From Parelaphostrongylus tenuis (Eukaryota > Nematoda > Chromadorea > Rhabditida > Metastrongylidae), in the NCBI GenBank assembly GCA_019055375.1, contig JAHQIW010004628.1, positions 94,807 to 158,806 on the forward strand: 64,000 bases of DNA, given 5' to 3'. Position 1 is the stretch's first letter; each line of letters opens with the position of its first letter. The notes beneath the pieces are model-generated. The model was given only the letters and a program-made list of their open reading frames with translations. It was not told the origin of the DNA and searched no databases. Shown here piece by piece: positions 7,670 to 57,800 of the stretch. Made by a program: the position numbers and the translations under genes.

Positions 7670-8601
7670 AAATTGCGTTCTCCGTAGCGATACACTATTC
7701 CGTGTTACATTATAGTCTACTTGGATTTTATACGACTCTTCTCTATTATCCGACAGGGGCTTTCGAAAGAGATTGTTCGCTGAACAAGACTCTCCAAAAT
7801 ACTCTTAGTCATCATTTAGGAGCGAATCTCCTAAAATTAACTGACGTATTTGTTGTCTAGAAAAGTCCTGTTACAGCGCTGTGGCACGATAAATGAAACT
7901 GTGTTTCATACACGTTGGTTATGAAAGTGATTGAATGCGTAGATTGCGTGTTAGTGCAATCTTTCCAGAGGCGATAAAGGCAAGATTGCCGACACGGAGT
8001 CATTAGTTTACTGCGTTGGGTTATTGTAAATGCAATGCACTGTCGAAGTTTGTCGTTTGATATTGGAATAAATTCCTAGGTAAATGCGGTCATGTTATAT
8101 TATATATTATTATTGCTAATAGCGTTCTATTTGCTCTTAATTTTGTATCCATTTTGGACTATGCAAAGAATGTTAATTGGTGCAAAAGCAATGGCGGTTT
8201 CATACTTTGAGTTCAAAATGGGCGTAAAGCAGCAGAGACAATGGCGACTTCAGCAACACATATGAGCAAAAAATTGGCAATTATCATACAGGGAAGCAAT
8301 GTCAAAAGTTTTATTAAGTAGACGAGAGCTTTGGAAAGGAGGAGTTAGGTGATCGGGTATGGAAATCTGACAACGACACGTTTAAAGCATTCATCAACGC
8401 TGACCCTTCTACGACAACGCGAGACGCTAAGGAAAAACTTAACGTCGACTATTTTACGGCCATTGGCTATCCAAAGCAAGTTGAGCGAGTGGAAAAGTTC
8501 AAAAATTCGACTTTTCTATAAATCTCGGCATAATCAGTATTTTTATGAAAATCGAGAAAACTTATCTTGTTAGCTGACGCGAGGTTGGTAAATTAGTCGT
8601 A

Positions 8602-8655
8602 GAAGTTCGGCTGACGTTTCGGCGACTCGCCTTCTTCAGAGCTTGAGCGTATGTA
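8602..8655 (-). ncRNA. hammerhead ribozyme (intact core)
   Basis: On the minus strand: CTGAAGA (8639-8633), stem II GGCG/CGCC, GAAA, a two-base-pair stem III (AC/GT with no loop) and a GTC cleavage site at 8615-8613. Stem I closes with GCT against AGC. All conserved core residues (CUGANGA, GAAA, U16.1 H17) are present. Stem I is short, so activity may be weak. Confidence 0.7.
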
Positions 8656-8694
8656 GTACTATCTTGTTAGCATAGTTAGACTAATCTACATACG

Positions 8695-8737
8695 CTCGGG
8701 CTTTGAAGAAGGCGAGTCGCCGAGACGTCAGCCGAAC
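8695..8737 (+). ncRNA. hammerhead ribozyme, decayed core
   Basis: Plus-strand arm of the same palindrome. The first core base is T instead of C (TTGAAGA at 8703-8709) and GAAA has become GAGA (8722-8725). Stem II GGCG/CGCC and the GTC site remain. Predicted inactive. Confidence 0.6.
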
Positions 8738-9110
8738 TTCACGACTAATTTACCAACCTCGCGTCAGCTAATCAAGATGAGTGGAAAAGGTTGGTGCAAA
8801 GTAGTGACGGTTTATTTACTGCCAACTGAGAGTCACACGTAGCACAACGAACACTCCAAAAGTTGGACGATTTGAGCTACAAAGTCTTATCACATCTTTC
8901 ACTTCGCCGAACCTCGTGCCTACCGGCTATCCCTTTTCCAAGTATCTTGACAACTTCTTGCGAAGAAAACTTTTCGACAACGAACAGAATGCAGAAGATG
9001 CCTTCCATAATGTACTAATTCCAGAGCATCATTTTTGTCTCACATAAGTAAGCACATCACATTCCCTCGGCAAAAATGCGTTAATTGTAGTGAATCCTAC
9101 TTTGATTGAC

Positions 9111-10310: not shown

Positions 10311-10617
10311 TCAAAATAATTCCAAAAAAGAATGTTTCAAGCCTAAACGAGGTTGGTACGGCAGGGCCATACACCGGTGTTTCGGAGGTTTCCGCCTCCT
10401 GGTCAGTGACCTCCGCCCACATTGAGCCCTTCAATGTAGCAAGGAGGGAGGCGTGATGATGCATAGTGTACAATGACACTGGTCCATCACCACTATTCAG
10501 TAGATGGATTTCGGCTAGTAGACCAACATTAATCCATAAGATCGACTGCTTTTAAAACCTCGTGATAAACATTCAAAATGATTCCAAAAAAAGAATGTTT
10601 CAAGCCTAAACGAGATC
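10311..10617. mobile_element. hammerhead-bearing repeat, partly tandem copy
   Basis: A unit begins with a 42-43 base leader (TCAAAATAATTCCAAAAAAG to CCTAAACGAG), continues with GTTGGTACGG, and then the same leader recurs at 10577-10617. This gives a head-to-tail unit of about 266 bp. The unit matches 43066-43345, which has only the first leader. One hammerhead lies on the minus strand near the left end. It is not a palindrome, unlike the other ribozyme elements here. Confidence 0.7.
10363..10412 (-). ncRNA. hammerhead ribozyme, one core change
   Basis: Minus strand: CTGACCA (10406-10400) where the consensus has G at the sixth position, a perfect five-pair stem II GGAGG/CCTCC with loop CGGAAA, GAAA, a self-complementary stem III ACACCGGTGT and a GTA site. 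The G8-to-C change is at the general-acid position, so this copy should be inactive. Confidence 0.65.
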
Positions 10618-11900: not shown

Positions 11901-14573
11901 GACGTCCTATCTATATCTAATGGTTGAAGTTTATATTACTCCTTCTCTGCGGTACCGAAATTTCAAAAAAACAATCGTGCGCAACTAAACCGCACGTATG
12001 TGATGGAGTCATTCAGTGATACGGCGCTATACACAAACGTTTCGATTCAGATTCATTTCAATCCGTTCGGAGCCATATCGGTTTCTCATAGAGCAGGCGG
12101 CGCGCTTCAATTACAGTGTGATATTTTCCAATGAAACTTAGATTTCTATCGCCACTAAAGGAGGACAATCGTCACCAAACTGTGGACTATGATAGAAAAA
12201 CTTCATCAGCTATGTGTACTAGAAACATCGACAATGCTTCTCCAAAATCCCACGCTCTCAAGACAAAAAGCAGATACCTATCGAAGCGTCGTATTCCGAA
12301 CTATTACTGAACATTCCTATGCATTGTACATTTTTTATCCACATTTGAATCATGTTCCTCCCACTTTTCATGTCAGTGACTATTTGCCTTAGTACATCAC
12401 CGCAAACAAAGAATGTTTAAATAATTAATGCGTTGTGAGCCTGAGTATTTGAAATAAAATATTGCTACATAAATGCTTCAATTTTGATATATTTCGATTC
12501 CATACAATACCCAAAAGTCATCAGAGTGCTCTAAAATCAGCAAGCTATAACCAGTCTGCCAAAATTTATGCCTTACACCGCATACGATGCCAATTTTTCG
12601 ATAATCTTTGAAATTCCCGGTCACTAGTGCACTTCAGGAGTTTCGGCTTGCATAGAACTATAATAGAGATGTTTTGCTATCGCTTCATGAGTAATCGTTT
12701 GATACTCTCCCGTTATCCGTACCTTGTTCCGACCCTTTGGAAAAAGTAATTTTTCTATAGTGTTTGCTGTTCAAGTAAGCATTTGATAGCTTAAATCAAG
12801 GGAATTTGAATGAACTAACTCATTCCTGAAAAGGCCTTATTATTACGCTAAAAGGGCAAAAATAAGATTTTCCTCTTCTTTCAAAAATTTCTCCCTGATC
12901 AAAACTTTTCTCTTAGAGTTTTAATATCCAACCAGTGGATCAAATCTCAGAGATTCCAGTAATGTTCTTGGTTTTTGCAACAGACTTCTAGATGCGCTAT
13001 AACAGCCAAAAAAAGATTGGGTTGTGTGAAACTGGATCATTCCTATTATTCACACCTTTCTTTGGAATTTTGAGAAAAACGCGACTTTCAGTTTTTCTTT
13101 CCGTGTTTTAAAGTCATCTCATAAATCGCATTTCAGAGACTTAAACGGTGTACTTTGTTTTCTTAATGGCTGCACTATTGCACTACAGCGGCCAAAATGA
13201 AATTTTTATTTTTTGAAATGCTTCTCGCTGAACACATCTTTTAGACTCTTAGCAACGATCTGATAGCTTAAATCTTGCCGATCTTACAAGTGTTCTTAGT
13301 TTGTGAAAAAGACTTTTTGTTGCGCTGTAGCTATCAAAAGAATGTCAAGTTTCGCGCAACGCGACGTCGACTTCGATCCATCACGCTTTGAAGATATGTG
13401 TATGAGATTTCACCATATTGGCGCCAAGTAACACGCTTTTACCTCTATGCGAACAAGATTTCGCAACAAATGATACCAGTGCACTGCATATCGTTTTCCT
13501 CCGATTGCTTTCTACTGGTTTGCATCGAGTTCCCTCAATCATGAGCCTTTATGCTACATTAAGTACTGAAAAAGACACAGCCATGTTCCCACGAAAACAT
13601 GGCGTGTTACAAACCGAACACCAGTGCGAGAAAGGTCGTCGAATGAAACTTGAGTTTGGTCGCAGACATTTTGGTGATGTGCCAAGCATGTTCTGGAAAA
13701 GTCTCATTGATCACGACACATCCTGCGCGCCGAATGCGAAATCCAATCTTCTTTTGGTCGTTAAAGCACAATGAGACGTCTGTTTCAAAAGCCAACGGTA
13801 TCACTTGAATTGTGGAGATTTGATCTGTCGCTTTGTTGAGAATCATCCAACGAGCTAGCTTTATACAACGATAAATGTTCGATTGAAGAACAAAATTTTA
13901 TTTCTGCCCATTCATCTCAATTGTAGCGCCTTTTCAAAAAGCAAATAAATCACTCGGATATCGTTGATTTAAGCTATTGAATGATTATTTAAAGATCAAA
14001 AATGCCAAAAAAATACGTTTCTTCGTACTTTTGATGAGGAGGAAACGAATGAAAAATGGAACTTTTTCCTTGGAAAGCAACTTTTCACAGAAGTATCAGT
14101 AACCATTTGAAAGCTGAGATAAGAAGCACAATGAACATTAATCGTCTCTGTAAGCAATGCCACTAAAAACACCCTTTAATTTTGTGTGTTCTACTTTTGT
14201 AAGTTGATGTTTTTAGTACAAATGCCTGTATCTATCGCGGTTCTGAAAACTCGCAATTAATTTCTATACAATTACTTTCAGGCGGTTCGAAAGGCTATTA
14301 GCACACTGAGATCATCCTGGAATTTTATCTGCTTGCGATGACTATCCTATCCCATATACAAAAGTGCGTTGTAAACAAGAAAAGTCAGATCTTTGTATTG
14401 TATTAATGTAGTATTTAATCGTAAAAGCTGTGAAGTGAAGTTGCTTGGATCATATTTTCAATGAAAGGTTTTGTTATCTGTAAAAAAATGCTGAAAAATC
14501 ATGTAAACTGGGAACCTTACAATCTACGATGTTATTGTATGTTATTTAGGATAGTAGGCATATAGAAGTTGCT

Positions 14574-14574
14574 G

Positions 14575-14605
<31 letters not shown>

Positions 14606-14822: not shown

Positions 14823-15341
14823 AGGGAGATTTGCTACCAAAGAGTCTCTGTTGAGTCATACTATATTAACACATCATGTCGATTACAAATTATTCGGTGC
14901 AACTCTGTTATCGAAAGGTTTTTTCGGCGAGATCTTTTTTGTCTGAGTTTTTGAGGAAAGAATCTCGGGACTGTTATTAATCAATCGTAAGCGCATATCA
15001 TTGTAAATTCAAAACGTACTCGACTTTGGAAAAGATTACTCATAATTCTGTAGCATTCAAAATAAAATTAGGTTTCACACCCGTCGCGCACTTCCACATT
15101 TATAGCGCCTATAATTCGCGGGAAGCACGAAAAGCATATGAGCGTGTAGAGGAAATGTTTTGAGCATCACAGCCATACGTCTTGTTCGAAATTTTTCCGA
15201 GAACGGAGAAAAATTCCAAATTTGATAATTCAAAAGTTCGACTTTCCATAAACCCCGGCATAATTAATTGTTATATGAAAATCGGAAACACTTAGTTTGA
15301 TTAGCTGACGCGAGGTTGGTAAATTAGTCATAGAAGTTCGG

Positions 15342-15385
15342 CTGACGTTTCGGCGACCCGCCTTCTCCAGAGCCTGGGCGTATGT
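15342..15385 (-). ncRNA. hammerhead ribozyme, one core change
   Basis: The minus strand reads CTGGAGA (consensus CTGANGA, so A6 is G), stem II GGCG/CGCC, then GAAACGTC. Otherwise complete. Confidence 0.55.
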
Positions 15386-15425
15386 AGTATTATCTCTTAG
15401 TATAGTTACACTAATACTACATACG

Positions 15426-15470
15426 CCCAGGCTCTGAAGAAGGCGGGTTGCCGAAACGTCAGCCGAACTT
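15426..15470 (+). ncRNA. hammerhead ribozyme (intact core)
   Basis: CTGAAGA at 15434-15440, stem II GGC/GCC, GAAA at 15453-15456, a two-pair stem III (AC/GT, no loop) and a GTC site ending at 15460. Stem I is GGCT (15430-15433) with AGCC (15461-15464). Every conserved position is present. With so short a stem III the family is expected to work best as a dimer or in tandem transcripts. Confidence 0.75.
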
Positions 15471-15840
15471 CTGCGACTAATTCACCAACCTCGCGTCAGC
15501 TAATCAAGATAAGTTTTCTCAGATTTGATAGTAAGAATCGCACTCCACATGTGAATCGCGCTATCAATACATATCAACCATACACCCTAGGCTACCAGCA
15601 ATGCACCAGTGTTTGAAACTCAATTTTATCTTCCATGCTGCAGTTCATTAAAGCGATGTTTTTAGAAAACACGCGCACTTTCGGAATCGGCGAAAGTTAC
15701 ACTATCGAAAGATTACTGATTGTTTGCCGAGTAAGCATTGTACTGTGAGAAATAAGCGTGTGTGAAATACAATTCCAGTTTTTCCAGAACAGCACTGTAC
15801 GGAGACTTTTCAAGAAAACGAATGCACTTGTGGAATTTTT

Positions 15841-17608: not shown

Positions 17609-18591
17609 ATAAATGTTCCTTCTTATAGAGATGTAGTTTTCTCGATGAATGTAGGAAATTTGTCTACATATGATCTTTCTTTTTTACAAAAAAAACCTTA
17701 TGGAAGTTTATTTGCAAAACTCCATCATTAATGCTGATGATGTCCTCTTGAGACTTTAGTTCATCGATTAAATTCCCATGTTGCATTGCAACGAGGTGAG
17801 CGCTGCGCGTAGATCACCCGAGCGTTCCCGATCGGGTCAGTTCAAAAATTTTCAATAATAGGCGCTCTTCGTGGTTTCTACATTTCTGCTTTTCTTAGCG
17901 CTACCGTTAAGATATTAGACGAACAGACGGTGTTCGTGATTCATGTCCTTCACAATGCTTTCTTCCAAAAAATGGGGAAGTAACAAAAGCTCCCACCCTT
18001 AATGTCTTGAGACATTGCTTCCTAAATTAAACGGTTATCTTTTTTTGTCTGTAAATAGAAAAATCTTGCGCAAGGAAGGCAATTATCTAGTTCCATTTGG
18101 ATTTCTCACGCAGGGTCATTGATTGATCTAGGTTTGGGTAACTTCATCAGGATGCTTCTTCGTGAGAAACTGTAAATTCTAATTGCGATAACTTCTTGAA
18201 ATCAAAATACCAACAATCTTTGAGCATCGACATTGAAAACAGCATTAATGGCCATTAAATTACATTGGCAAAAGATGCCACCATTGTTTTAGATTAGTAA
18301 TTCTTAAGTTGCCCATATAGCAATAGGAAGGTTCTGGAATTGTGAAAGCAATTATATCATTTTGCACGACACGTCTTCAGATTTTTTGTGCGGCTTTCAG
18401 ACTTCTAGCATCCGGTTTATCACCTGACAATCACCGCTCGCTTGAGAATTTCGTCTTTTTCGCGAACATCGTAGAATCGATGAGACAGATCTCGTAATAA
18501 CGACGATACGTCTGGGCAAAGATTACCAAAGATCATCAGTGACTGCTGATTGATATCGCTTCATGTAAGGAACTTTTTGATCAGGGGCTTA

Positions 18592-18680
18592 GGGGCGCAT
18601 ATAGTCCAGTGGTTAGAAGCCCTATGCACTGCTGTTACGACTGGATCTGTCACTACTTCAAGCTCGCATCCCTGGTGTTT
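18592..18680 (+). repeat. tRNA-like SINE head
   Basis: GGCGCATATAGTCCAGTGGTTA resembles box A and the region near 18660 a weak box B. The paralogue at 48276-48360 has the better box B (CTGGTTCGAGCTCGC). Shared by both copies of block A, so older than that duplication. Confidence 0.5.
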
Positions 18681-18860
18681 GAATTGACTCTGAACTCTCT
18701 TAAGGTGATTGCAGTTAGCACTGACCTAATACTTTAGGTGTAGAACACGGTAAGATTAACAAGTTTACTGCGGATAAACTGTCAGTAGAAGAATCGGATA
18801 AGTGGATTGAGTATGGTGGGATTACAGTAACCTAACGATCCAACTACTAACTGCTAGCTG

Positions 18861-18928
18861 ATGACAACGAATGACAAGCAATTACAACGGATGACAAGCA
18901 ATGACAGCGGATGACAAGCATGACAACC
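18861..18928 (+). repeat. 20-bp tandem repeat, about 3.4 units
   Basis: Units of the form ATGACAACGAATGACAAGCA follow each other with one or two differences. The next unit is ATTACAACGGATGACAAGCA. Confidence 0.85.
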
Positions 18929-20343
18929 AACTTTCTGCTTTGACGAAAGCTTATATATGGACCACAGACAAAGAGTTTGCCGATGAAGCGCTACACTAAG
19001 CCTACGAGTACATAAAAAATCTACGCACACAAAGAGTTATATTCGAAAACAAAAGGTTAACATGCGTACGAAAGCGGACAAGCAAGATGATGGTTTAAGA
19101 TAAAATTAACAGAAAGAATTTCCCGCTCATACCACATGGGAGAAAAATTCGTAACACAAAAGTGACAAGTTCATCTGCGATGGGAACGTAAACATAAAGG
19201 ACGTTGGGCAGCTGCACATTCGTTCCCCGACACCGACAACTTACAAGAATACAGTATACCAAATCAAATAATTCCAAACACCTGGCTCACCAAACCTCCC
19301 ACTTCTCCAACGTAGGAAGGTAGCATGTTTAGCAGATCTTATATATGGAGATACACCATTGCAAGTGATCAAATGGAACAAATATGCGTTCAGTCACTTT
19401 ATAATGCTTTGAAATGGGTTCGACTTTTGAGGGTTGGCTAATGCTTAAAGCTTTCTGTCTTACGTACTGGTAAGAATTACAGAGCTGTAGCTTACACTTG
19501 TCTAAACGAGTTGATATTTCTGACAAAACTAGTATTCACAAGGATATCATCCCACAAAACTCCGCTTTCATGTCCCGTCCACACTTCCAACGGCAAACTG
19601 GAAAGAGACCAATGTTTCCTCTTATCGCTTACTCGACAGTTAGTGGCGTGTTAGTTGATTTTTCTGACCTGTACTTTCACGACAAAGTGTTGTCTAAATT
19701 TATCCGAAATGGCTTTTATTATCAATGAAAGGGTCTAATAGTTTCTTGTTACTTCGAAATCACGCAATTCAGATTCATTGTTACGAAATAAAAAAGCTCG
19801 TCTTTTTATAAGTTGCGAACAGATATTTTGCTTGGAACTGTGTGCACAATATTATTTATACTAAATTTACGTAAGACAAAATTATCTACGAATATGAAGA
19901 GACATCACATTATAATAGTTCATTAACGAATACAATAGAATTTCCTTTAGCACCTTTGCTATACATGATATCGGTGTGAGTCGAACTCAGAGAATCTATT
20001 GGATATGTGCGGGCAATTACGGACCAAAATTCGGAGTGCAAAAGAGTCTTGAAATATGCGAGAATGCTGCAAGCCAATCAGATGTTATCAAATTCATCAA
20101 CATCACAAATTTATTCTGAAGATAAGACAGGGCGAAGCTTATTCTCGTATACGAGAAGCCTACGTGTTATTCCGATTCTACTAAGCTGAGGAAAAAGTTT
20201 CTTAGTATCAGCGAAAAATTCAAATTTCTCGTTTGTTTCACACGAATATGTTATTGTAAATTCATGGGGTACAAGAAACTCCCACGGCAACGCTAATTAT
20301 AACGTTGAAGGATTAGTATCCGCGCTGATTCGCTGAAGGCGCG

Positions 20344-20660
20344 CTGTTTCAGCAAGACAATGCCAAACCTCATACAGCAACGAAGACTACACAAAAGTTT
20401 GATGAATTGAAGGGAGTCGAGATCTTGCTGGATCCAGCCAACAGTTCGAGTTGCGCCGTTCGATTGATTCAATTCCGCTAGTACAAGTTTCTATTGACGC
20501 CGATCGAGACAATGATCAGCTGAAAGGCATGGGAGTTCTTAGATTCAAAGCCAAGGAATGGCAATTTTGAGCAGATCCGAATGCTTGTAGATCGTGACAG
20601 AAGATCGCAAATAATGATGGTCTTTATCTTGAAGAAAATTATCATGTTTTTAATTGAATC
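20344..20660 (+). mobile_element. mariner transposase remnant (in pseudogene intron)
   Basis: LFQQDNAKPHTATKTTQKF starting at 20344 is the second catalytic-Asp motif of mariner transposases, followed by a helix (DELKGVEILL). A carboxy-terminal piece near 20572-20645 reads IRMLVDR...NNDGLYFEE-like with one frameshift. The YSPDLAP block is scrambled. The paralogue at 49505-49880 lies at the same place, so the insertion predates block A duplication. Confidence 0.65.
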
Positions 20661-21894
20661 CAGGTATGAACTTTGAATTCTCAGCGGTGCTGATGAACTT
20701 TTTTCTCAACTAATAATATAACAAAACTTCACGCGATAAAATTTCGTTGTTATTAAATGGACAACGGACAGTGTCGTCAAATAGATACGGAATTATTTAC
20801 CAAAAACAGAGGCTTCCTTCACCATCACTCTCGAATTTATAGTCACTTTACCACAGCTTTCCAACAATAGCCACCTAACCTTTAGGAGCCAAAAGTTTTA
20901 AAATCCTTGGCTAAATCCGTGTCAGCAGACATGTCCACTATCAAATCGAAGCCTAAATGTGATATTTAATCAAATTAAACCATTCTGTGGATTTACAGGA
21001 GCACAAACATTTCGTGACTACTGAGTCAATTTCACTCGCCATCAAAATATTTTCTCTTGAGCTCATCAATATATCCACTACTCCTGTGATTGACAACCTC
21101 GTTGGTACCGTTATGGCGAACAATTTCAAGTTTCTTGGGTGCTTGCCGTTCCAACAATCGTAACTCCTTCTTCGGCCGCAATCTGTACAGCCGCAAGACC
21201 TACTCCACCAGATGCGCCATGCACGAGAACACGTCGACCCTCTATGAATTATACAAACCTTCATCAACATTTTCAAGAATAATGTCAATATGAGCAAAAA
21301 AATTAAAGTTAAATGAGGAAGGTAATCCTGCCTCATGTACTTCTGAAAATTTAAATGGGGATTGAAAAGCTTATTATCAATAAAATTTTTCTACTCTATA
21401 GTAAGAAGACCGTGCACAGTGTCTTTTAATCATACGAAGATTTGCACTGTGAAGTAAAAGGTATAAAGCAAGATCAAGGTTCCATCATCTCCATTGAAGT
21501 CTGCTTCCATAGTTTGTTAGTAGGACTATAAATCATGTTAGTTTGAGGCAAAACGAGACCCTGAAAACTATCTGTGCAAACAATGTCCCACCATACTATG
21601 CTGAATGATTTACATATGACATGTAAGCTGGACTGTCTCAATTATTAGAGCTGTAATGAATCAAAACTCATCTGAATTTTTCCGAGCAAAAATACTGCTC
21701 TAAGAGCCGTCATATAAAGGCATCCAAGACAAGCGTCCTCTTGGAAGGATAGTCCCTAATCCAGCACACTAGTTTAAAAAAAACAGCATAATTCTGCAGT
21801 GCCACAACATTTATGTGAGATACTCATTCTAGAAGAGAAAAACAACTCAAACTTTGGAAAGACCTCAAATACCGGTGAGAAGAGTCATTCAATA

Positions 21895-22440
21895 TTACGT
21901 CGTTCCATAGGTTCCAGCATAAGAGCTATAAACAACAAATTTTATGAATAAAAGTGATCTAAATTGCATGACTTCATTACCGTTCTATTGAGCATTTTCT
22001 TGCAAACATTTCAGCATACATCCCGCTTATATTTCCTTCACGATGGAGCTGTCTTGGCAACAAATTCGCTTGTTAGTCATACACGAAGGATGCGTAAGGG
22101 AAATGCTAGTTAAGCAACGCAGAAGATTAATAGAGCTCCGTGTGAACCGTCCGCAAATCGGTCAGTCGATCCTCCAGTCCTAGACGTTCTTTCGGCAACC
22201 GTATCATCGCCCTAAGCTCCATAAATCTTGCGCGCCACTACTAGCATTTTCCACTACGCACTATCCGTGCATGAGTATTAAACAAGTTTCTTCCCAAGAC
22301 AGCTCCATCTCAAAACAAGTATAGACAAGTTGTATGCCAAAATACTCGCAAGAAAATGCGCAATAGAAATATAAAAATCATGCAGTTTTATTTACTTCTG
22401 GTTAATAAATTTGGTGTCAGAACTTATGGAATGAAATGAT
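21895..22440. repeat. long foldback element, copy 1
   Basis: Inverted arms of about 250 bp. Outer pairs are CGTTCCATAGG against CTTATGGAATG, then TTGCATGACTTC against AAATCATGCAG; the inner pair is GGAGCTGTCTTGG (22045) against CCAAGACAGCTCC (22306). The same element sits at 51085-51665 in the paralogous intron. A related half-copy is at 35640-35700. The ORFs inside it are palindrome by-products. Confidence 0.7.
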
Positions 22441-25360: not shown

Positions 25361-25531
25361 ATCTTTTCAAATCAGCAGCTGATCGATCGCACGCGCTCCA
25401 TTCTCGAATTTAAATATGTTATATTATACCTTTCCTTCGAGTGCTTTATTAAGACCACGCTCAAATTTCAATAGATCCTTTCATTATTATTTGAGCCAAC
25501 ATGTCATGTGGTCTGGTAAGGGCTCTTGTAC

Positions 25532-42061: not shown

Positions 42062-42065
42062 GTCG

Positions 42066-43060: not shown

Positions 43061-43065
43061 AGAAA

Positions 43066-46289: not shown

Positions 46290-46695
46290 TCTACCGGTGA
46301 TATAATTTTATAATATATCCATCTATGTAGAGTGATGTGCACAACTTTACGTGAGTTCGGGATTAGAGCCCATTTTTCACCCTATACGGGGCCGGTTACT
46401 CAAACTGTTGCACTGCCGACGCTGTTTTGACGCCACTCTTTCTACGCTACAGCGACATCTATCTGTCAGCAACCAACCGTCAACGGTATGGCACGGGTAG
46501 TCGCTATCGACATTGCACCAAGTCACGCTGACTAACGCGTTACAGCGTAGAAAGAGTGGTGTCATAACAGGCGTGGACCTGTGCACCGATTTGAGCACGC
46601 GCTTTCGGAAGGAGTGTAATGTGGGTTTGAGTCTCAGCTGACGCAAAAGTTTTTTTACATCACTCTCAGATCAATGAGTGTAATATAATATCTTG
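46290..46695. repeat. tRNA-like element, full palindrome (copy e)
   Basis: Both arms hold a tRNA-like core in opposite orientation: minus-strand core at 46340-46430 and plus-strand core at about 46560-46640 (box B-like GGGTTTGAGTCTC). They are joined by inner arms CACTCTTTCTACGCTACAGC and GTTACAGCGTAGAAAGAGTG around a 65-bp centre. Ends are GGTGATATAATTTTATAATA and the diverged complement. Absent from the paralogous site near 17.25 kb. Confidence 0.7.
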
Positions 46696-48275
46696 CTAAG
46701 CAATATCAATAAATCCGCTATAAATCTAAAACAAGGCACTCCGGAAGCAAGAAGTTATCTTTATCTCGTTAGTAAAGCGTACTACGAAGGTCTTTCACAA
46801 ATTGAACTTAGTTTCAGTATCGGTAACTCTCAAATTATTGTATGACTACAAAAACATAGACTAAGATGAAGGAAACAATTATAATGCAGCAGCTGAGAAG
46901 AATGTTCCTTCTTGTAGGGATATAGTTTTCTCGTTGAAAAACAGAAAAATTTGCGACACATGAGCGTTCATTCTTACTAAATAATTTTTATGGAAGTCTA
47001 TTTGCAAAGTTTTTTCGGCTTTTACGTCATCCGTAGGCGTCGGTTGAGTTTCTTTCCTACTTCTGCTTTTGATCTCGGCCTGACATCATATCCGATCAAC
47101 AAGAAAGCCCGCAGATCCAACCATTCCATTGTAAACGACATCTTGAAAACTTGTTAACGCCCTCACAAGGTTACGTTAGGAGACCAAGGAATATCATATG
47201 CACTAGCAGCAATATAGCATTTTGAATTTGTGCTGGGGTCCTCACAATTAGTGAAGACGGACCATCTAAGTATCTAGGTAAGTAGGTACTTGCGAAATTT
47301 CATCATTTCATGATGATAATGTCTCCTTGAAACTTCAGTCCCACCAAATACGATTCCCTATGGTTCATTGCAGCGAGGTGACTGTTGCGCATATATGTCC
47401 CCAGCGTTGTCGACCGGGTGAACTCGGAAATTTTTGAATGACAGGCGCTCTCCGTGATTTGTGAATTGTGGTTTTTTTTTAGGCACTACCCGTTTTCCAG
47501 AAAATGAGAAGTAATAGAAATTTCTCAACTCTGATTTTATGGTACATTGCTTCCTGATAACGATTATATTTTCTGTCTGCGAATGGAAAAATCTTACGCA
47601 AAGGAATGCAATAATTTAGTCCCATTTAGATCTCTTACGCAGGGCCACTACTTGATTATCGATGTGGTTAATCTCATCAGAATGCTTCTTCTTTGTAAGA
47701 AACTGTTAATTCTCAAGCGGTAACTTCATGAAATTAAAATGCCGACTTTCTTTGAGCATCGACATTGATAATGGCAGTAATGGCTATCGAATTACAACGA
47801 CAAGTGATACCACCCTTGTGTCAGATCAGCAATGTTCTTGAGTTCTCCATATAGCGATAGGAAGGATTCTAAAACTATAATTTCAAATCTATTAGTTTAC
47901 ACGAGCGGCTCCCAATACTTGTGACATTCTGGCTGTCTCCTGATAATCACAGCTTGTTTGAGTATTCAGTCTAAATCGCGAACGCCGTTGGATAGTGATT
48001 AGGCAGATTCGCAATATCGGTTTTTTAGTCTTCTGGAAAAGAATCCGTGACACTGTTCAATCTCTGGTTACCAATGTGAAATTCATCGCGACAGCTGTTT
48101 AATGTACAGATGATTGTCATGTGAAAAATATGGTTCTATCTAGAGTTTGGCAATTTTGAAATAAAACACCTTTATCTCTTTCATTAAAAAAAGTGTCCAG
48201 CTACAGGGTTCCGAAACTATCAATGCCACTATTAGATCAGTATCGTTCCATGTAATAATCTTTTTATCAGGGGCT

Positions 48276-48360
48276 AAGGGGTGCCTATAGTCCAGTGGTT
48301 ACAAGTGTTGTGCAATGCAATGATGATGAGATCGATCGCTGGTTCGAGCTCGCATTCCTG
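48276..48360 (+). repeat. tRNA-like SINE head
   Basis: GTGCCTATAGTCCAGTGGTTAC (box A-like) and CTGGTTCGAGCTCGC (box B). Paralogue of 18592-18680. Confidence 0.5.
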
Positions 48361-48891
48361 GCTCATCAGACCTTCCTTTTTCTCCAAGTTCGGCAAATTG
48401 GCATCAAACTTGTCTATAGGCATACTTATTTTATACATGGACATACGTCATCGCAAGTGGTTGAATGACACGGATACGCGTTCAGGCACTCTATGATGCT
48501 TTGAAGTGAAGTCGACCTTTGAGGGTTGGCTAACGTTGAACGCTTTTTGCCTAATGTACTAATTCAAATTGCAGAGATATAGCGAGTACTAGTACAAAGG
48601 AATTGTTATTTGTGACGAAACTAATATTGACAAGGATATTATCTCTCAAAACTCCTTTATGATGTACCCTCCACCTTTTTTGGGTAAACCAGAAAGCGAC
48701 CAATGTTTCGTCTTGTCGCCTAACCGACAGTTGGTGGCGTGCCCATTGACCTTTCTGACCTGTACCTCTGTGACGAGGTACATTTGAGATTGCTAAGTAG
48801 TCTAGATGGATCCCATATGACTTTCTTCATCAACGAAAGGGTCCAATGGCTTCTTATTACTTTGAACTCGAACATTTCAGACTCAGAGTTA

Positions 48892-51800
48892 CTAAATAGT
48901 AACGCGTGCCTTACTAAAAGTTGAAAATAGATTATAAGTAGATAACTCGTTTGAGATTGTGTGCACAACATTTTTACTCAAGAATTTATGTAGAACAAGA
49001 TTATCCACGAATATGAACAGATATAACATTATAGTAGAATCATTAACGGATACAATAAGTTTTCCTTTAGCACCTTTGCTATCCATGATATCGGTGTGAG
49101 CTGAACTCAGAGACTCTAGTGGATATGTGCGGGCAATCACGGGCCGAAATTTCGAAGTGCAAAAGAATCTTGAAATATGTGAGGATGCTGCAAGCCAATC
49201 AGATGTTATCGAATTCATCAACATCACACCTAAAACATATTCGAAGGTCAGTGGAGGATAAATTTATTTTTGCAAAAGAGACGACTAAGTGTTGATGCCG
49301 ATTTTACTAGCATAAGGATAAAGTTCCATATAACACCCGCGAAAAATTCGAATTTAATGCTTGTTTCAGTCCAAAATTGAATTTATTTGTTTCATTTTCA
49401 TGTATCGATTATTGCAAATCCATGGGGATACCCCTAGAAATCATTCCACAAGAAACTCCCACGGCAACGTTAGCTATAGCATTGAAGTAAATGCACCCGA
49501 CATTTTGTCGAAAGCGCGCGCTGCTTCAGCAAAACAAGCCATAACTCACATCGCAAAGAAGACTAGCGAAAAGTTTGATGAACTGAAGAAGTCAAGGTCT
49601 TGCTGCACTCAGCCTACAGTCCAAATGCTGCACCGTCCCATTATGGTCCAATTTCCGCTCGTTGGAACACTTCCTGCCTGGACGTCGATTCGAGACATTT
49701 GATCAAGTTTAGGAGGTTCGTTAGAAGTTTTTTGATTCAATGCCCAAGGTAAAGCAGTTTCGAGCATATCCGAAAGCTTGCAGATCATTGGCAGAAGATC
49801 GTGGATTATGATGGTCTTCATATGAAGAGTAATTATCGTTGTTCTTGATTGAATTTGTAGAAAATTTGAATTTTCAGCGGGTTTTGAAGAACTTTTTCCT
49901 AACCTAATAGTATAACAAAACTTCACGCAATAAGATTACGTTCTTACTGACAACGCACACTTCTGTCAAATAGATACGAAAATATATACCGAAAACAGAG
50001 GCTTCTTTCATCATCAACGCTCTCGGATTTATAGTCACTTCACCACGATTTCCAACGATAGCTACCTGGCCTTTAGGAGCCAAAAGTTCGAAATCGTTGG
50101 CTAAATTTGTGTGAGCAGACATTTCCACAATCAAATCGAAGCCTAAATGTATTATCTAATTAAAATAAACAGCATTCTCTGGATATACAGTCGTGACTCC
50201 CTAAATCAATTTCACTCACCATCAGGATATTTCCTCTTGAGCTCATCAATATATCCACTAGTTCTATGATTGAAAACCTCGTTAGCACCATTTTGGCGGA
50301 CGATTTCGAGACTTTCTTCGGTACCTGCTGTTCCAACAACAGTAACCCCTTCTTCGGCAGCCATCTGTACAGCCGCAAGGCCTACACCACCAGATGCGCC
50401 ATGCACAAGAAGACGTTGACCCTTCTATAAAGTATACAAACCTTCATCAACATTTCAAAGAATATTACCACTATAAACGAAAGTCACCAAAATTCAATAA
50501 GGAGAGTGTTCTTGCCTCATGTAGTTTTGATTATTTGAAAGGGGGATGAAAAACGTCTTATCAACGGATTTTTCTACTTATAATAGAAGACCGTGCACCA
50601 TGTCTATTAATCATACGAATATTTGCACTGTAAAGTGAAGGTATAAAGCAAGAGCAAGTGTACCATCACCTCCAGTGAAGTCTGCTTCCGAATTGTTGGT
50701 ACGAGTATAAAATCATATTAGTTTGAGGCAGAACGAAACTCGGAAAAGGATCTGTGCGAGCGATTTCTAACTATGCTACGCTAAAAAATTTACTTATACA
50801 TCATATAAGCTAAATTATCCTGATAATTAGAACTTCAAGAAATCAAAACTCAACCTGGATTTTCCCGAGCAAGAATACTGCCCTAAAGGCCGTCATATAA
50901 GGTATTCCAAGACAAGCTCCCTCTTGAAAGGATAATCCTAAGCCAACATACTAGTTAAAAAAGTGAAAATTTAGGATTCTGCAGTGCCAGTGCATTTATG
51001 TGAGTTATTCGTTTTAGAAGAAAAAACTCAAATATTGAAAAAACTCCAAATAACGGTGAGAAGAGTCATTTAAAAATAATACGCTGCTCCATAAGATTTG
51101 GCACTAGAGCAATAAACAACATTTTTATCAACTAGAAGTGGTCAAAATTGCATGATTTTGGTATTGTTCAATTGTGTATTTCTTACAAACATTTTGGCAT
51201 ACAATCTACGTATACTTGCTTTGAGATGAAGCAGTGTGGGGAAACAAATTCGCTTGTTACTCATGCACGAATGGCGCGAGGGGAAAATGCTAGTGAAGCG
51301 GTGCGCGAGATCAGTGGAGCTTCCTATGGACGACCGAGCACGACTGGTCCTCCAAAATGTTCTTCGCAGCTTCGAACTTCGAGAACCATTCCTGATCACC
51401 CTTTCTGCAGCCGTATCATCGCTCCAAGCTCCATTAATCTTGCGCGCTCGTTTAAAAGCACTTTCTTTAAGCGCTATTCGTGCATGAGTAGCAAACCAAT
51501 TTGTTCCCAAGACAGCTCCACCTCAAAGAGGGTAAAGGTAAGTTGTATACCAAAATGTTCGCAAGAAATACGCAATCGAACGATCCCAAGATCGGGAATT
51601 TTAATTCTTTCTCGCTGATTGATTTGGTGTTTAATGCTCTAGTGTCAAAACTTATGGAACGACCTAATAGCATGAAATATCAACAAGAACTCGCCAGATG
51701 GAAGAAGAAACACATTTTCTGCTAAGCAGAACTCAGCAGCGCTTCCAGTTACGGAAGCCGCAAAATAAACACGGTCACCCACTTTCACGTGACTTACGTC

Positions 51801-54800
51801 TTCTCCAGTCTGTAAGTACTTAGTTTTTACAGTGCTATGAATACGAATCATCACTGAATAATCTCCACTGAACATCTTCCACATTCCTTTGTCTTTTTAG
51901 AGTTACGTTGCAAAATTTCTTACAAAGAAAAAATACTGGAATATTTTTTAGAGTGTCGCTTCGATTGGGAACAATTTTCTAATACACAGTTTAACTGCAG
52001 TGCTTATCAAATTATAATATTTCAAACATAATAATTAATTTCAATACCGAACTCTATGTCCTAACGTCTCCTGATTTCTCACGATTATCAACAATAACAG
52101 ATAACAGAGCTTACTATTTCGTGATAAACCTAATGATGTGGAGTGGTGTGCAAAAACGGTTGCGTCAGCCGCAAAACATTTTTTGCACACCACTCTATAT
52201 CACTGAGTTTATTGAGAACATCATAACACCGCAATAGGCAATCAAATAGAATGATTTCCGATTGATTATTTCGTGATATCTTGCAAAGTGACAAAGTTGC
52301 ATATGTGATCCAACCATTCGGCCCTACCGATTACAGTGAAATCAGCATTAACTTAGTAATCACAAATCAGTTCTAACGCGGTAGACTGAATTATGAAAAC
52401 CGTTGAGCCAAATTTAAGCTCTCAAACTGGAAAAAGCGTGTGTAAAAAGACTTGTAAAGTTTTGAAGAACGGCTCCGAATGGGCACAATTACCGTACTCA
52501 AAAGCAACAACGCGAGTGGAGCGAAACGTGTCCAATTCCAACTCAAAAATTGTGATTGACTTTTCACCAAACTAATCGGGTCATCATCTTTGACACTTCC
52601 AGCTACCTTGACATTTTTCTTCGACTCAAAATTACCAAAGAACAACTAGCCGAAACAACAATTCCTGCACCATCTCGCCCAGGAGTATACGGTAGAGTGG
52701 GAAGTGCTGGATATTGACCATTACGAATGTAAGTATCAACAGGATTTACACCAGCAGCACCAACGCGAATCAAAACCTGGAAAAAAAATTTTGTAGCAAA
52801 ACACAAAACATATGTAAGAGGGAAAATACACGCTGTATATTCTAAAAAAATTTCCAACCTTTGTTATAACTGTCCTAAAAAAAATCATATATTCACGTAA
52901 CTACGCATACGGTGCGGGTAGCGCAGCAATCATTATGCCAACCATCATGAACACGATAATGTACGGACTAAATTTCAAGTTCACCAAGCTTCCCATATCT
53001 CTGGCATCTCAATAACCGCATCAGACTTTTCTGGTTACAGTTCACTTTCCAACACCCAAGTGGGAACGATGTAGCCCGATATGTGAAGACCCCACGAAAT
53101 GGACTTTATTACCATTCGAAGACTTTCGTGAAGAGAACGACAATTCTCAAGCAGCAGTCGAACCCACACGTACAAAAATGGATAAGGGATGCGATGAAAC
53201 AAATCGAATGCATGTGCTAAGATTTGAACAGTGGATGTGAATAAGAGTGGCATGAAATAAATGCCGTGAAGATTATCAATGCGTTTAACACATCCTCGCA
53301 TGGCCAATTTGAATGATCAGCATGTTTCTTACTAAACACAGTTGCTAACGTGGGCTTGGATACCCGCGTACAGATCAACGCTTCTCGTTTGTCACAAATT
53401 GTTATAAGTCCACAACAGTAACGAAAGGCTACATCGCGAACATGAGCACGTTTTCACGTTCAATTATGAAAGTTTCGTCCAAAAGTCGGGTCACAGAATT
53501 CCTCACATTGCAGAGACTGTACCTAGGGACTGAGCTACTGAAAGTCATCGAGGACGAAATGGGCGCATGTCTAGCACTTAGACCTCACAAACAGCTCAAA
53601 ACTTGCTATATCATTATCAGACTATTATTGTTCTCGAGCGAGTTTTATAATAACCTAATAAAAAAGCCGTCGAACGAAAAGAATTGATTCATTTTACAGA
53701 TACAAGCCCGACTTCTGGTCTTTGCAATCCAGGGGATTCAATCATTTGATTTGCGGTGATTTACTGCTCGGCGTCGATTTCTTCATAAAGAAGTATAGCC
53801 TGAAAGGATCGGCCGGATAAAAGGACTGTGCTATTAAAAAGCCCTAGAGGACGAAACAGGCGCCTCTCTAACACCTGTACCTCACAAATGGCTCGAAACA
53901 TGTCATATTATTATCAGATTTCCTCTCATGTGTCGCACATACCGCTTGCGAACGTTTTTATAGTGCATGTGCAGTTGAGCTGTTACTGCACTGTGTATGC
54001 ATATCAGATCAATGCCCTTAGCCCTTTCAGGACCATAGCTGATATCGCCGCGAGCAGTCGCATTCGCAGTGGGCGCTCTATTTTTCGTACTTAACTTGGA
54101 TCCCTGTCCGTTTTCATAAATATTTATAGGTCTCCTGCGATAACTCGACTTTTCACGATTTTCTCTACACGACCGTGTGCTTTTGATGCAGATATAGCTG
54201 TTATGGTGAACCTTTCTTCGCTACACGATCATAGTGTTGTCAGCATTCTGTCAATCGTGATAAGTTGTACGAAGAATATTGAAATACAAATTTATTATAC
54301 CTTTATTTCGAATGTTTTATCAAGAGCACACTCAAATTTCTATAGATCTCTTCATTATTATTTGAACCAACATATCATGTGGTCTGGTGAACGGACTCTT
54401 GTACAGCCCGAGACACGTGTTTCGTCCTAAAAGTCTCGTCACTCGGGCAGAACCCGTGGTCTTCAATCTTTTTTAGCCAATACTCTGTTGGTGCTCCAGT
54501 CCCTACACTATGAGGTACCGAAGACGAACTTTTACACTGTAAGTCAAGTGAAAATATCACCAAGCTCGCAGTTTCGTACACTCGATTGCTCACAGGCTGG
54601 CATCGTCATTAAATTATACCTTCATTTCAAGTGTTTTATTGAGACCACGCTCAAATTTCAATAGATCTCTTCATTTTTATCTGTGCCACCATGTCATGTG
54701 GTCTGGTAATGGGCTCTTGCGCAGCCCTATATACGTGGTCTTAAAAATTTATATATTAAGATATGGTCGTAATAAAACACTCGAAGTAAAAGTATAACAT

Positions 54801-57800
54801 GTCAAAAATACCAGCCAAAGAGCAATCGAGTGTACAACAATGTAAGTTCGGCGATATTTTCACTTGACTTACAGTGTAAAACGTTCGTTTTCGATATCTC
54901 TTATTGTGGGGACTGGAGCACCCACAGAGGATTGGCTAAAAAAGATTGAAAGACGACGGGTTCTGCCCGTTTGACGGGAGTGTAGGTCGAAACACGTGTA
55001 TCGGCTGTACAAGAGCCCATTTACAGACCACATGACATGTTGGCTCAAGTAATAATGAAGAGATCTATTACAAATTTATTAGTTCTGTCTATATTTTATT
55101 ACATACAACACTCAAAAATTTTCCATAGTTACTGAAAATCAGAAAACAATGAATGGATCGTCAAAGATGATGTTTCACTGTACATGCGATGCAGGTCATC
55201 GATAACGAAACGTGAAAATCCTTATGGGACTAAGGTCTTTTGGTGGAAAAACATTTTTCCTCAGGCTTTTAGTAATCATTCGATAGCTTAAATCTGTTGA
55301 TCACGATGCTTTATTTAGCATTTGAAAAACGTTTCTTAATGAGCTGTAACAGCTACAATAAAATTATGTTCGATACTCGGCTTTTTTGTTCGCTCGGTTA
55401 GGGTCTGTGGATAGCTTTTCATTCAGAGTTCAGTAGCCAATTGATAGCATATATGGATACATGATGATTCTAAAGAAAACTTTTCTTTCGCAAAGCTTGT
55501 TATAGAATGTTGTGACAGTAAGGAGAAAATGTCGTTTAGCCCTCAGATATTTTCTCACATACAGATGTATGTGCGTGAAAAGCGTATGGACGTGTCGAGG
55601 CCATTGTGTTGTATCAGATCATCAACAAATCTATAAACTTGTTCTGAAACAAAGGAAAAATTTCTGAATATATAACAAGAATCGTGCCCTTCGAATGAGG
55701 ACTGCGTACAACGATTTCGACTGCCGCCCCGTAGGAACGCGACTTTCGTTATTTATTTAGAAAATTTTTTCCTTTGCAGGAAAATTCTTGAGTTCGACGT
55801 AATCGTAAACAGACTTTGTTTTATCGTTCTATAGATATTGGCTTCTCATTTCCATTCTACATAGGAAATGAACACTCTCTGACTTTCAAGCTAGAGGCTA
55901 ACTATTTTGAGTGGAAAACATAACAGTTTTTCGCTCTTACAGCGCTCTGAAACGATCTTGCGAAATTTCAACTAAGACTCAAAATGTCGACATTTTTCTA
56001 TTAATGATCATTTGAATATCATTGGATACTATGAGAAGCCACGCAAAGACGCTGGCCTTGCAAATAATAAACGTAAATGTAATTTTTTTTCGCAGTTGCT
56101 ATATAGTATTAAAAAGATCTATGTAGAAGCCAACCTTGGTATTGACAGTTCCACTTCTTGATCTATCAAAAAATTATTGAAACCTACCAAAACACTTTGT
56201 ATGGCAAAAAGCCAAACAAACAAGAGTTCAAATCACACTATAGAATCCGGAGGCAGATCATAATTTTTCTTCGTTACTACAATGCACCAAAAGCCCTTTC
56301 AGAAGAAAAAGGAATTCAAGTCGTCATTTCTTAGCTATCGAATGACTACTAAAATTCGCAATGAAAACCTGTACCCTATGAGAAGACTACGAAAAGCCAG
56401 TGTACCACTTTTGGTACATTTGCTCCCAAAAAGATAGCACGAATCTTCTCTTCTTCGTCGTTACTACAATGCTTGAAACGTTTTTTTTTCCTTCAATTTA
56501 AGTATTTAAAATTCCTCAAGCTATTGCACGACTACATAAACTTTGATGAGTAAGCTAAGCAAACAAGACTGCAAAATACTATAAACTCCGAAAAAAAACC
56601 AATTTTCTCTTCGTTGCTACAGCTCACCTAAAAAGCGTCTCCAAAACACCGTAGAAACATATCATTGTTTGACAGAAAAAAAAGGTCTTTAACACAAAAA
56701 GCGGGCGTCTGACAACATCAAATCATAATGTATGAACTGATTCAGTTGAGCGCAAATGATTAGACGAGTAAAATCTTCCTACAAGTGATATTTAGACGTA
56801 ACTATGCGTCATAAATTCATAATTTTCATTGCAAATTTTGGCCAACTTTGATAGGATAACGAACGACTTCTACTCATCTCAAACCCAGGCTGAGATGACT
56901 TTAGAACACCTCCGAAGCGTCGCTGCTTAATGTCGGATTTTGCAAGGGACGAGAACGCGCTCTCCATGTCCCAACTGGGCCCGTTGGCTCTCTTAGGACC
57001 GCTTTTATGTACATCACTGCTGCCTTTCCGGCACATTTACCGGAAGGGTGATACAAACATACGAATGGAATTCTCCTGTGCTGTCGTTCGCTGCGTATGC
57101 GAACGCTGCTCGGACACTTTCTGCCCGTCCTCTCGGCTTGGAATGCTCGGCACTAACTGCATAGGAGTCGTCGCGTCGTATCACACGCGAGTTTGTTATT
57201 CTGCTCTATCATAGGTGTGAGCGCATAGTCAACCTTTTCAAATTGGCAGCTGATCGATCGCACGAACTTGATTTTCGACATTCAAATATGTTACTTTGAT
57301 TACTCTCATGGTCATGTGCTTCCATGCACATAGTACTCTTATGCGTAAAGAAAATCCGAGTACGAACTTGATCTTCTTTTCACTCTTACAGCGTTCTTCA
57401 AATTTTTTGGAAAACCAGTTCATTATCAGAATTTTCGAGATTCGAGCTATCGAAAGACTGCCAAAAATCCAGCGAAAAAGGATCCACAGATTCCAGCAAG
57501 TAAACAAAGCAAAACGGTTAACATGATAGTACTTTCGCTGTCATTACGCAGTAAGAAATTTCTGAGAACTCAAGTAATTTATTAAATTCGCTGAACTGCT
57601 TTTGAACAGTTGCTAAAAGCCTTGGAAAAAGCTTTTCCAGCGAAAAAGGCCTCTCCAAAGTTGCGCATTTTCTGGATTCATGCCGTCCTGAAAGGGTTAA
57701 ACACAAACATACACTTGGATGTGTATGCATTGGTTCAGTGCAAAGTAATGACGCTCTCACTCCACGAGTTTAAATCGGGCTTTTAAATAGAAGAGACGTC

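Follow-up and report, generated by a model that had tools for sequence, protein, structure and literature searches.

Hammerheads in the window

The window, a stretch of 64,000 nucleotides from the nematode Parelaphostrongylus tenuis (contig JAHQIW010004628.1), contains hammerhead motifs in several repeat families (A, B, C and, unproven, D) and a relic of a Penelope-like element (PLE) open reading frame (Table 1). An earlier note, made from the sequence, had listed seven full hammerhead cores. That the hammerheads are real is borne out by a strict descriptor whose matches lie far above those in shuffled sequence, by one copy above the Rfam cut-off and by covarying stems. The descriptor (exact CUGANGA and GAA, stem II, stem III, H and stem I; composed after the earlier list was known) finds five window sites, namely 25569(-), 25721(+), 39704(-), 39957(+) and the doubtful 43162(-), against six matches in total in 200 dinucleotide shuffles (mean 0.03, maximum 1 per shuffle), with overlapping scores for shuffle matches (18-25) and window sites (18-23). 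Rfam Hammerhead_1 matches the window at 25533-25575(-) with 34.8 bits (cut-off 34), at 25715-25762(+) with 26.8 and at 54406-54448(-) with 22.9.

Table 1. Repeat, ribozyme and PLE features of the window
Feature	Position	Strand	Evidence
Family B palindrome, PLE-type minimal hammerhead at 8602-8655(-)	8549-8783	.	36-nt match to PLE 3' region hammerhead
Family B palindrome, PLE-type minimal hammerhead at 15426-15470(+)	15274-15530	.	
Insert 1 (A), left target-site duplication TTAAATATGTTA	25410-25421	+	Exact 12-mer repeated at 25819-25830
Insert 1 (A), left arm, long 3' end, unit 62-320	25421-25679	-	Alignment to 320-bp unit
Insert 1 (A), hammerhead, intact core	25531-25577	-	Rfam 34.8 bits; R1 70.4 bits
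Insert 1 (A), right arm, short 3' end, unit 134-279	25683-25827	+	Alignment to unit
Insert 1 (A), hammerhead, intact core, one stem I mismatch	25713-25759	+	Rfam 26.8; R1 69.4 bits
Insert 1 (A), right target-site duplication	25819-25830	+	Repeat of left 12-mer
Diverged A/C-like hammerhead, GAAA changed	28373-28419	+	R1 62.3 bits; blastn matches within 28366-28508
Penelope-like ORF relic, RT and endonuclease parts, with stops	30191-30944	-	tblastn with PLE ORF; translation
Diverged A-like hammerhead relic, core substitutions	32944-32990	+	R1 67.2 bits; blastn matches within 32890-33028
Family C left arm, portion pairing with right arm; intact-core hammerhead 39666-39712(-)	39659-39745	-	Inverted arms
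Family C right arm, portion pairing with left arm; intact-core hammerhead 39949-39995(+)	39916-40002	+	
Insert 3 (A), without hammerhead, 12-bp duplications AGTTCGATAATA at 40380-40391 and 40482-40493	40380-40493	-	
Insert 3 (A), single arm, long 3' end	40386-40479	-	Alignment to unit
Hammerhead-like match, family D repeat, unproven	43118-43170	-	Descriptor fit; R1 12.9 bits, E 0.24
Insert 2 (A), left target-site duplication TACAAATTTATTA	54285-54297	+	Exact 13-mer repeated at 55069-55081
Insert 2 (A), left arm, ~1.4 units in tandem, long 3' end	54293-54737	-	Alignment to unit
Insert 2 (A), hammerhead, first C of core substituted	54404-54450	-	Rfam 22.9; R1 67.1 bits
Insert 2 (A), right arm, ~1 unit across unit junction, short 3' end	54763-55077	+	Alignment to unit
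Insert 2 (A), hammerhead, core substitutions	54963-55008	+	R1 52.9 bits
Insert 2 (A), right target-site duplication	55069-55081	+	Repeat of left 13-mer

A model termed R1, built from nine family A/C copies (seven of them in the window), detects eight A/C hammerheads within the window; 39666-39712(-), outside the training set, scores 33.7 bits (E 1e-7). Four of the eight had been absent from the earlier list: 28373-28419(+), 32944-32990(+), 54404-54450(-) and 54963-55008(+). CUGANGA and GAAA are both intact in 25531(-), 25713(+), 39949(+) and 39666(-); the copy at 28373(+) keeps CUGANGA and carries AAAU in place of GAAA, and in the remaining three, 32944(+), 54404(-) and 54963(+), CUGANGA is altered. 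Six of the seven cores first listed hold. The seventh, 43118-43170(-), is unproven, having a weak model score and no Rfam match up to E 10. Family D is at most a doubtful member: the descriptor fits, the model score is weak, and the core of the sister repeat near 10.4 kb is changed, reading CTGACCA.

Compensating stem changes, as the earlier note had reported, are present in the A/C copies. In nine sequences, 90.6% of the cells of 13 stem pairs are paired and seven pairs are changed on both sides, compared with at most 3 pairs and at most 44% in slid controls, the structure being drawn from the same sequences and family C amounting to one row. Judged from sequence, core and covarying stems make up a type I hammerhead fold of three stems with stem I open, for which self-cleavage is predicted.

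The three sequence groups first distinguished are separate families, the repeats at 8.6 and 15.4 kb (family B) being of the PLE type and those at 25/54 kb (A) and 39 kb (C) being without a PLE ORF. In family B, the cores at 8602(-) and 15426(+) have an extra A after CUGAAGA and a loop-less stem III of 2 bp (ACGU), and core changes are present in the mirror arms. They match the hammerhead of the autonomous PLE at 85-92% over 34-37 nt and share little else with it; by this match, the ribozyme type of family B is that of the autonomous PLE. Both palindromes have the same layout inside a longer common repeat (blastn), and a reading as two independent insertions was rejected on this ground.

Units, arms and insertion scars

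The family A unit is 320 bp long, ORF-less, with a G+C content of 0.447 and the order body, hammerhead, stem-loop, 3' end. Its 3' ends fall at two sites downstream of the ribozyme, a short one at about unit position 270 and a long one at about 318, and its 5' truncation points vary. Mostly, two opposite copies with outward 3' ends and meeting 5' ends lie inside one target duplication, which is exact and 12-13 bp long in the three window inserts. The earlier view of mobile elements with hammerheads holds, and a nematode host agrees with it: of the 12 best matches to one host exon, 11 bear names of strongylid nematodes and one is nameless. The inverted pair, then taken for the element, must be read differently: a single arm makes up the unit, and the pair is what insertion left behind as a scar, since the arms are truncated differently at their 5' ends, one 3' end is long and the other short, and a 12-13 bp target duplication encloses both.

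Among the 30 best family A loci, not selected for pairing, 21 are head-to-head (17 of them long/short), and a flank string of at least 9 is found in 16/21 of these, against 1.7% of 420 controls. The other nine deviate from a clean head-to-head layout: seven are single arms and two carry additional diverged segments. Some single-arm inserts, too, are enclosed by flank repeats. The loci were ranked by a query containing the long end, and the frequency of long ends, which include 6/7 of the single arms, is thereby partly selected; the odds are unaffected because neither orientation nor the short partner end was selected. Some arms exceed one unit and reach up to 2.3, with more than two units at L057 and L060. 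Clustering of 5' ends at the ribozyme cut (unit 202), looked for as a sign of cleavage, is absent, although 14 of 54 fall at unit 222-257; both points count against the explanation favoured below. Median divergence is 4.19% within inserts and 4.32% between them, and rare variants are shared in 36/347 comparisons within and 345/17932 between inserts, which was judged a weak test of a same template.

A tblastn search for the PLE ORF in L041-L070 returned one 22-aa stretch, in L066, and nothing else. As no reverse transcriptase or endonuclease ORF was found, families A and C are at most non-autonomous. Exact family A patterns gave 0 matches in viral and prokaryote contig collections. The inverted arms of family C are 82% alike and have no common string of at least 9 in the flanks tested; the head-to-head arrangement is the one part of the scar seen in it. 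Family E occurs elsewhere in the genome and has a tandem spacing of 284 bp at L078.

Penelope-like elements of the same genome

The 481-Mb assembly around the window also contains PLEs, encoded in a single 902-aa frame with RVT_1 at 439-607 and a C-terminal GIY-YIG domain at 795-881. A hammerhead lies about 210 nt 3' of the stop codon in 9/12 top loci (10/12 with a looser pattern). Genomic copies have the hammerhead in a pseudo-LTR, tandem or inverted copies and an optional tail. The layout is that described for Penelope-like elements with hammerheads in pseudo-LTRs, which combine reverse transcriptase and GIY-YIG endonuclease with a hammerhead near the 3' end, a head-to-head partner, an optional tail on one inverted end, target duplications and tandem copies (PMC3846280). 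The mirror-pair arrangement is thus not new in kind, head-to-head pairs being known from these elements (PMC3846280). With the PLE ORF as tblastn query, the window has matches only at 30191-30944 and 11979-12044.

Twenty-two GIY-YIG neighbours at most 5 kb apart, among 150 matches listed, comprise 20 head-to-head, 2 same-strand and 0 tail-to-tail cases. The orientation count covers all 150 listed matches; counts of ends, duplications and templates are valid for PLE pairs only, the loci L021-L040 having been chosen mainly for close GIY-YIG pairs (L023 and L024 for long frames). The 18 pairs counted leave out L023 and L024 (single arms), L013 (a pair cut by the locus end) and L025 (an old pair with the ribozyme pattern unmatched on one side). 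Exactly one 3' end is long in 18/18, and the partner lies within the short cluster in 16/18. A flank string of at least 10 is common to both sides in 14/18, against 2/306 mismatched controls. Both arms come from one subfamily in 18/18 and, in a clearer same-template test than that of family A, are nearer each other than the median same-subfamily copy in 17/18; only in 6/18 do the two arms diverge less than the closest copy in any other insert, and in the young subfamily other copies are equally close to an arm. L031 is an exception. The repeats in the flanks and the close match between arms suggest that each pair was inserted in one event.

Probable mobilisation by PLE machinery and its alternatives

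The best explanation, with a probability of roughly three in four, is that families A, C and E are non-autonomous PLE-type retroelements that contain a type I hammerhead and amount to retrozymes relying on PLE machinery for their movement. Family A bears the PLE scar in full: head-to-head arms, one long and one short end, and a target duplication. The PLE protein would cut the target on both strands. Reverse transcription of one RNA species would then start from each exposed 3' end, on one side at the long site and on the opposite side at the short site, after which the cDNAs would be joined end to end. Less firmly, multimeric transcripts may be trimmed by the hammerhead to single units, whose RNA would be closed into circles by ligation. 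On circular unit RNA, start sites 3' of the cleavage site would still be on the template and inserts might exceed one unit; in these sequences, circular templates and uniform linear multimers would look alike. In favour of priming on both strands, the Anolis PLE in vitro cleaves and extends both strands, with two adjacent internal start sites (PMC11167929). On the other side, its ribozyme is dispensable in vitro (PMC11167929), and a search of limited reach brought to light no PLE with the 3' region of family A, C or E. Nor do the window A or C copies match the genomic PLE's 3' region in blastn, so it is the scar alone that points to trans-mobilisation by that PLE.

Alternatively, mirror pairs might arise by self-priming: the first cDNA, or an antisense transcript, would fold back and serve as primer for the copying of its own sequence. 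For the head-to-head Penelope repeats of a rotifer, such priming with an antisense template has been proposed (PMC3846280), and arms within one insert are mostly alike. However, fold-back of a long-end cDNA cannot yield a second arm that reaches further 5', and the short-end arm extends further 5' than the long-end arm in 8/18 PLE pairs; nor would fold-back be expected to leave a constant long end on one outer side and a constant short end on the other, as with the one long end of 18/18 pairs. Self-priming is for these reasons unlikely, and its antisense-RNA version, less fully countered by these points, keeps some of the remaining probability.

A similarly low probability is assigned to inserts of the PLE type whose hammerheads in families A, C and E are passive relics without a catalytic role. 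Consistent with such relics, 4/8 window A/C cores are damaged, inserts do not begin at the cleavage site, a loop-less stem III predicts poor monomer cleavage and, in a transcript spanning both arms, the two ribozymes are predicted to be buried (fold z -29). Against them stand the covarying stem pairs of the A/C copies, the core retained across families that otherwise differ, and at least 31 Rfam matches in the genome at E <=0.001, 20 above cut-off (74 of 119811 candidates scored). Foldback or MITE-like DNA transposons with chance hammerhead-like motifs in their terminal inverted repeats would fit the long inverted arms, the target duplications and the family B palindromes, alike in layout inside a longer common repeat, but are very improbable: rather than fixed symmetrical termini without 5' truncation or multimers, family A has unequal arms, variable 5' ends, single-arm inserts with flank repeats and arms above one unit, and an element with reverse transcriptase and endonuclease bears the same scar.

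Families A, C and E differ from Penelope-like elements in being without the PLE ORF, in units of about 300 bp (A, E) and in a palindromic stem III of 6-10 nt. With metazoan non-LTR retrozymes, which range from 150 to 450 bp (PMC7229834), they share a type I hammerhead, a unit of 320 bp (A) or 284 bp (E, L078), a G+C content below 50% and tandem copies in part of the inserts, in A in arms of up to 2.3 units; in contrast, the present inserts, known from DNA alone, are usually head-to-head with one long and one short end, and the words 'inverted', 'head-to-head' and 'nematode' are absent from the main text of PMC7229834. Schistosome W-elements and Sm-alpha repeats, likened here by description, are likewise dispersed hammerhead repeats of a parasitic worm, a paired PLE scar not being among the features described in the relevant parts of PMC8490949 and PMC6155905.

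PLEs have been named a strong candidate for the enzyme that moves small animal hammerhead retrozymes, since the two occur together and have their ribozyme type and tandem arrangement in common (PMC7229834). The scar evidence added here supports this published hypothesis of retrozyme movement by PLEs: an ORF-less ribozyme element bears the insertion scar of a PLE that resides in its own genome. Models of PLE insertion are likewise restricted by the scar to those giving two arms in one target duplication, a long and a short end, and a like template. It is possible, though doubtful, that in this nematode lineage a single PLE-type enzyme mobilises small hammerhead retrozymes as well as itself, priming both strands of one break, with hammerhead-made circular RNA templating both cDNAs and with fixed strand roles for the long and the short site. 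If true, the hammerhead would acquire a common job in PLEs and retrozymes, and the mirror-pair scar would be explained. Both the PLE-type scar on an ORF-less element and the limits on PLE insertion are open to in vitro test.

Paired insertions of a Penelope-like element

Judged from its sequence, an element of the Parelaphostrongylus tenuis genome with a single 902-residue frame carrying RVT_1 and GIY-YIG endonuclease domains is a Penelope-like element (PLE). In a genome search for GIY-YIG, 150 of 1723 first-look candidates were scored and all 150 matched; neighbours at most 5 kb apart among these listed matches were head-to-head in 20 of 22 cases, on the same strand in 2 and never tail-to-tail, and two further +/- neighbour pairs lay more than 15 kb apart. 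At 9 of the 12 loci, the PLE stop codon is followed after about 210 nt by CTGAAGAAGGC...GCCGAAACGTC, the hammerhead type that the earlier note placed first; a looser hammerhead pattern raises the number to 10. The match of the palindromes at 8.6 and 15.4 kb in the window to the PLE 3' region is limited to 34-37 nt at the ribozyme (85-92% identity).

The 3' ends of the 18 PLE pairs analysed show a bimodal distribution: measured from the start of the ribozyme, they lie at 82-97 nt or at 130-150 nt, where 150 nt is the reference length. Exactly one end is long in every pair, which has a chance of about 4e-6 if ends were independently long with a probability of one half, and the partner end belongs to the short class in 16 pairs and is shorter still in two (44 and 65 nt). 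A string of at least 7 nt is shared by the two flanks in 18/18 pairs versus 13.7% of 306 mismatched controls, and one of at least 10 nt in 14/18 versus 2/306; the remaining four strings, 7-8 nt long, are weak. There are two subfamilies, and none of the 18 pairs mixes them. In 17 of 18 inserts, the arms diverge less from each other than the median for other inserts of their subfamily, L031 being the exception, and in 6 they diverge less than the minimum. The arms differ at 0/2141 sites in L021, 0/1820 in L033 and 1/1343 in L040. From the end, flank, subfamily and divergence data, a PLE pair thus looks like one event at one target from like templates. Since most of these loci had been chosen for being pairs, the claim on orientation rests on the 150-match neighbour count and on 30 loci of an ORF-less element, family A.

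These scars fit two-strand target-primed reverse transcription at a staggered cut, in which each target strand would prime reverse transcription and the 5'-truncated cDNA ends would then be joined; where the arms meet, they overlap slightly or leave a small gap. In vitro, a recombinant Anolis PLE cuts both target strands and extends each of them, with synthesis beginning at two neighbouring internal positions; that study saw no difference in start site between the strands (PMC11167929), whereas the two ends of one nematode insert differ. Antisense self-priming, put forward for rotifer Penelope (PMC3846280), retains some residual probability as a source of mirror pairs. Fold-back of a long-end cDNA would generate a mirror pair as well but does not explain the 8/18 pairs in which the short-end arm extends further 5'.

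A hammerhead-like motif, CTGAAGAAGGAGAAACCTCCGAAATGTC, occurs in L008 behind a second, diverged PLE ORF. Beyond it lies GGTCTTGGGAACTG, which resembles the long-end GGTCTTGGGAATTG of the first PLE family; different PLE families may thus share a conserved long start site.

Scars of ORF-less hammerhead elements

The 320-bp unit of family A, whose reference was taken from one genomic tandem, consists of a body, a hammerhead, a stem-loop and a 3' end, with the predicted cleavage site at position 202 of this unit, to which the copies were aligned. A genome search scored 40 of its 2844 first-look candidates, and the best 30 loci, including the window, were used; pairing was no criterion in this choice. 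The copies are head-to-head (minus copy first, plus copy last, 3' ends outward) at 21 of these 30 loci, seven are single arms, two (L046, L068) contain diverged extra segments, and simple tail-to-tail pairs are absent from the 30. Two classes of outer end occur, a short one near position 270 and a long one near 318: the 21 pairs comprise 17 long/short, two long/long, two long/other and no short/short, and 6/7 single arms end at the long site, a long-end frequency that is partly selected because the ranking query contained the long end, while orientation and short partner ends are unaffected. Flank strings of at least 9 nt are common to both sides in 16/21 pairs versus 1.7% of 420 controls, and all three inserts in the window have exact target duplications (TTAAATATGTTA, TACAAATTTATTA and AGTTCGATAATA).

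An Rfam search of the genome with at least 31 matches, at least 20 of them above the cut-off (74 of 119811 candidates scored), unveiled a relative, family E; the same search of control genomes gave 0/14. Hammerhead, AGACC...GCTCAAA box and 3' region follow in the same order. The sampled 16 loci (L001-L008, L071-L078) represent 15 distinct places, L005 and L006 being one insert. Opposite hammerheads, minus then plus, occur at three places (L002, L005/L006, L007), a tandem with 284-bp spacing at L078 and inverted self-matches at L003, L004, L074, L075 and L076. Family C, the 39-kb pair of the window, is head-to-head, and a flank string of at least 9 nt was absent from the flanks tested.

Two family A arms (L057, L060) are longer than two units, and their template was therefore multimeric or circular. 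The start sites are 3' of the ribozyme cut, and the template must thus have escaped cleavage there or been rejoined. Cleavage followed by ligation into a circle would retain the start sites and let synthesis run round more than once; two laps of one PLE arm in L034 differ at 4/1581 sites, and both closely resemble the opposite arm. A uniform linear multimer would have the same effect, however, and the 54 family A arm 5' ends show no clustering at the ribozyme cut (14 are at unit positions 222-257, just behind the ribozyme); nor did the Anolis element need cleavage in vitro (PMC11167929). For a transcript through both arms of a pair, structure prediction gives a long hairpin (z -29, -278.5 kcal/mol) that would bury both ribozymes, and paired copies are thus probably poor sources. 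The L034 PLE pair adjoins family A sequence, into which it was probably inserted.

Earlier papers describe minimal hammerheads in PLE pseudo-LTRs, together with head-to-head PLE copies that may or may not bear a tail (PMC7761336, PMC3846280), and retrozymes as tandem elements of 150-450 bp, with PLEs proposed as a strong candidate driver (PMC7229834). Among the titles and abstracts that literature searches listed, none on retrozymes with PLE scars or on hammerhead elements in a nematode genome was seen.

Hammerheads and surroundings in the window

A strict exact-core descriptor identified five hammerheads in the window, including a doubtful one at 43162(-), versus six in total (mean 0.03) in 200 dinucleotide-preserving shuffles, with scores that overlap those of the window. 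A covariance model trained on nine copies of families A and C detected eight A/C hammerheads. The compensating stem changes noted earlier were borne out in the nine sequences: 7/13 pairs vary on both sides and 90.6% of pair cells are standard, compared to at most 3 pairs and at most 44% paired in slid-structure controls, over which a structure derived from the same sequences is favoured. Six of the seven full cores listed earlier hold, and that at 43118-43170 is unproven.

Features of the window and of two other loci of the genome
Feature	Position	Strand	Remark
Hammerhead	25533-25575	-	only one above Rfam Hammerhead_1 cut-off, 34.8 bits
Hammerhead	25715-25762	+	Rfam match under cut-off
Hammerhead	54406-54448	-	Rfam match under cut-off
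Hammerhead	39666-39712	-	outside training set; E 1e-7, A/C model
Repeat family D	10312-10488, 43000-43184		~88% identical; hammerhead-like match in one copy
Degraded ORF, second Penelope-like family	30191-30944	-	stop codons; pieces 36-56% identical to 902-aa ORF
PLE ORF match	11979-12044	+	22 aa
PLE 3' region match	59638-59708		73 nt
Hammerhead-like motif and GGTCTTGGGAACTG	L008:300-1000	-	
PLE pair	L034:1198-7266		plus arm ~1.5 units
Old segmental duplication	18185-28282 / 47717-57495		spacing ~29-32 kb; pieces mostly 75-89% identical
Exon-like stretches, quinone oxidoreductase (zeta-crystallin-like) gene	47-57 kb duplication copy	-	
tRNA-Ser-like sequences	116-189, 32418-32490, 46532-46610		within longer repeat
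tRNA-Leu gene	41989-42061		ordinary in appearance
Large inverted repeat	26075-26309 / 27445-27679		235-nt arms, 86% complementary, 1.1 kb apart; open frames in arms

The assembly comprises 481.5 Mb in 5105 contigs. Strongylid nematode names are borne by 11/12 best matches of one quinone oxidoreductase exon, among them Ancylostoma (85% identity), Angiostrongylus (93%), Heligmosomoides (88%), Nippostrongylus (90%) and Cylicocyclus (85%), over about 41 residues. The repeat with the tRNA-Ser-like sequences is probably a tRNA-derived SINE.
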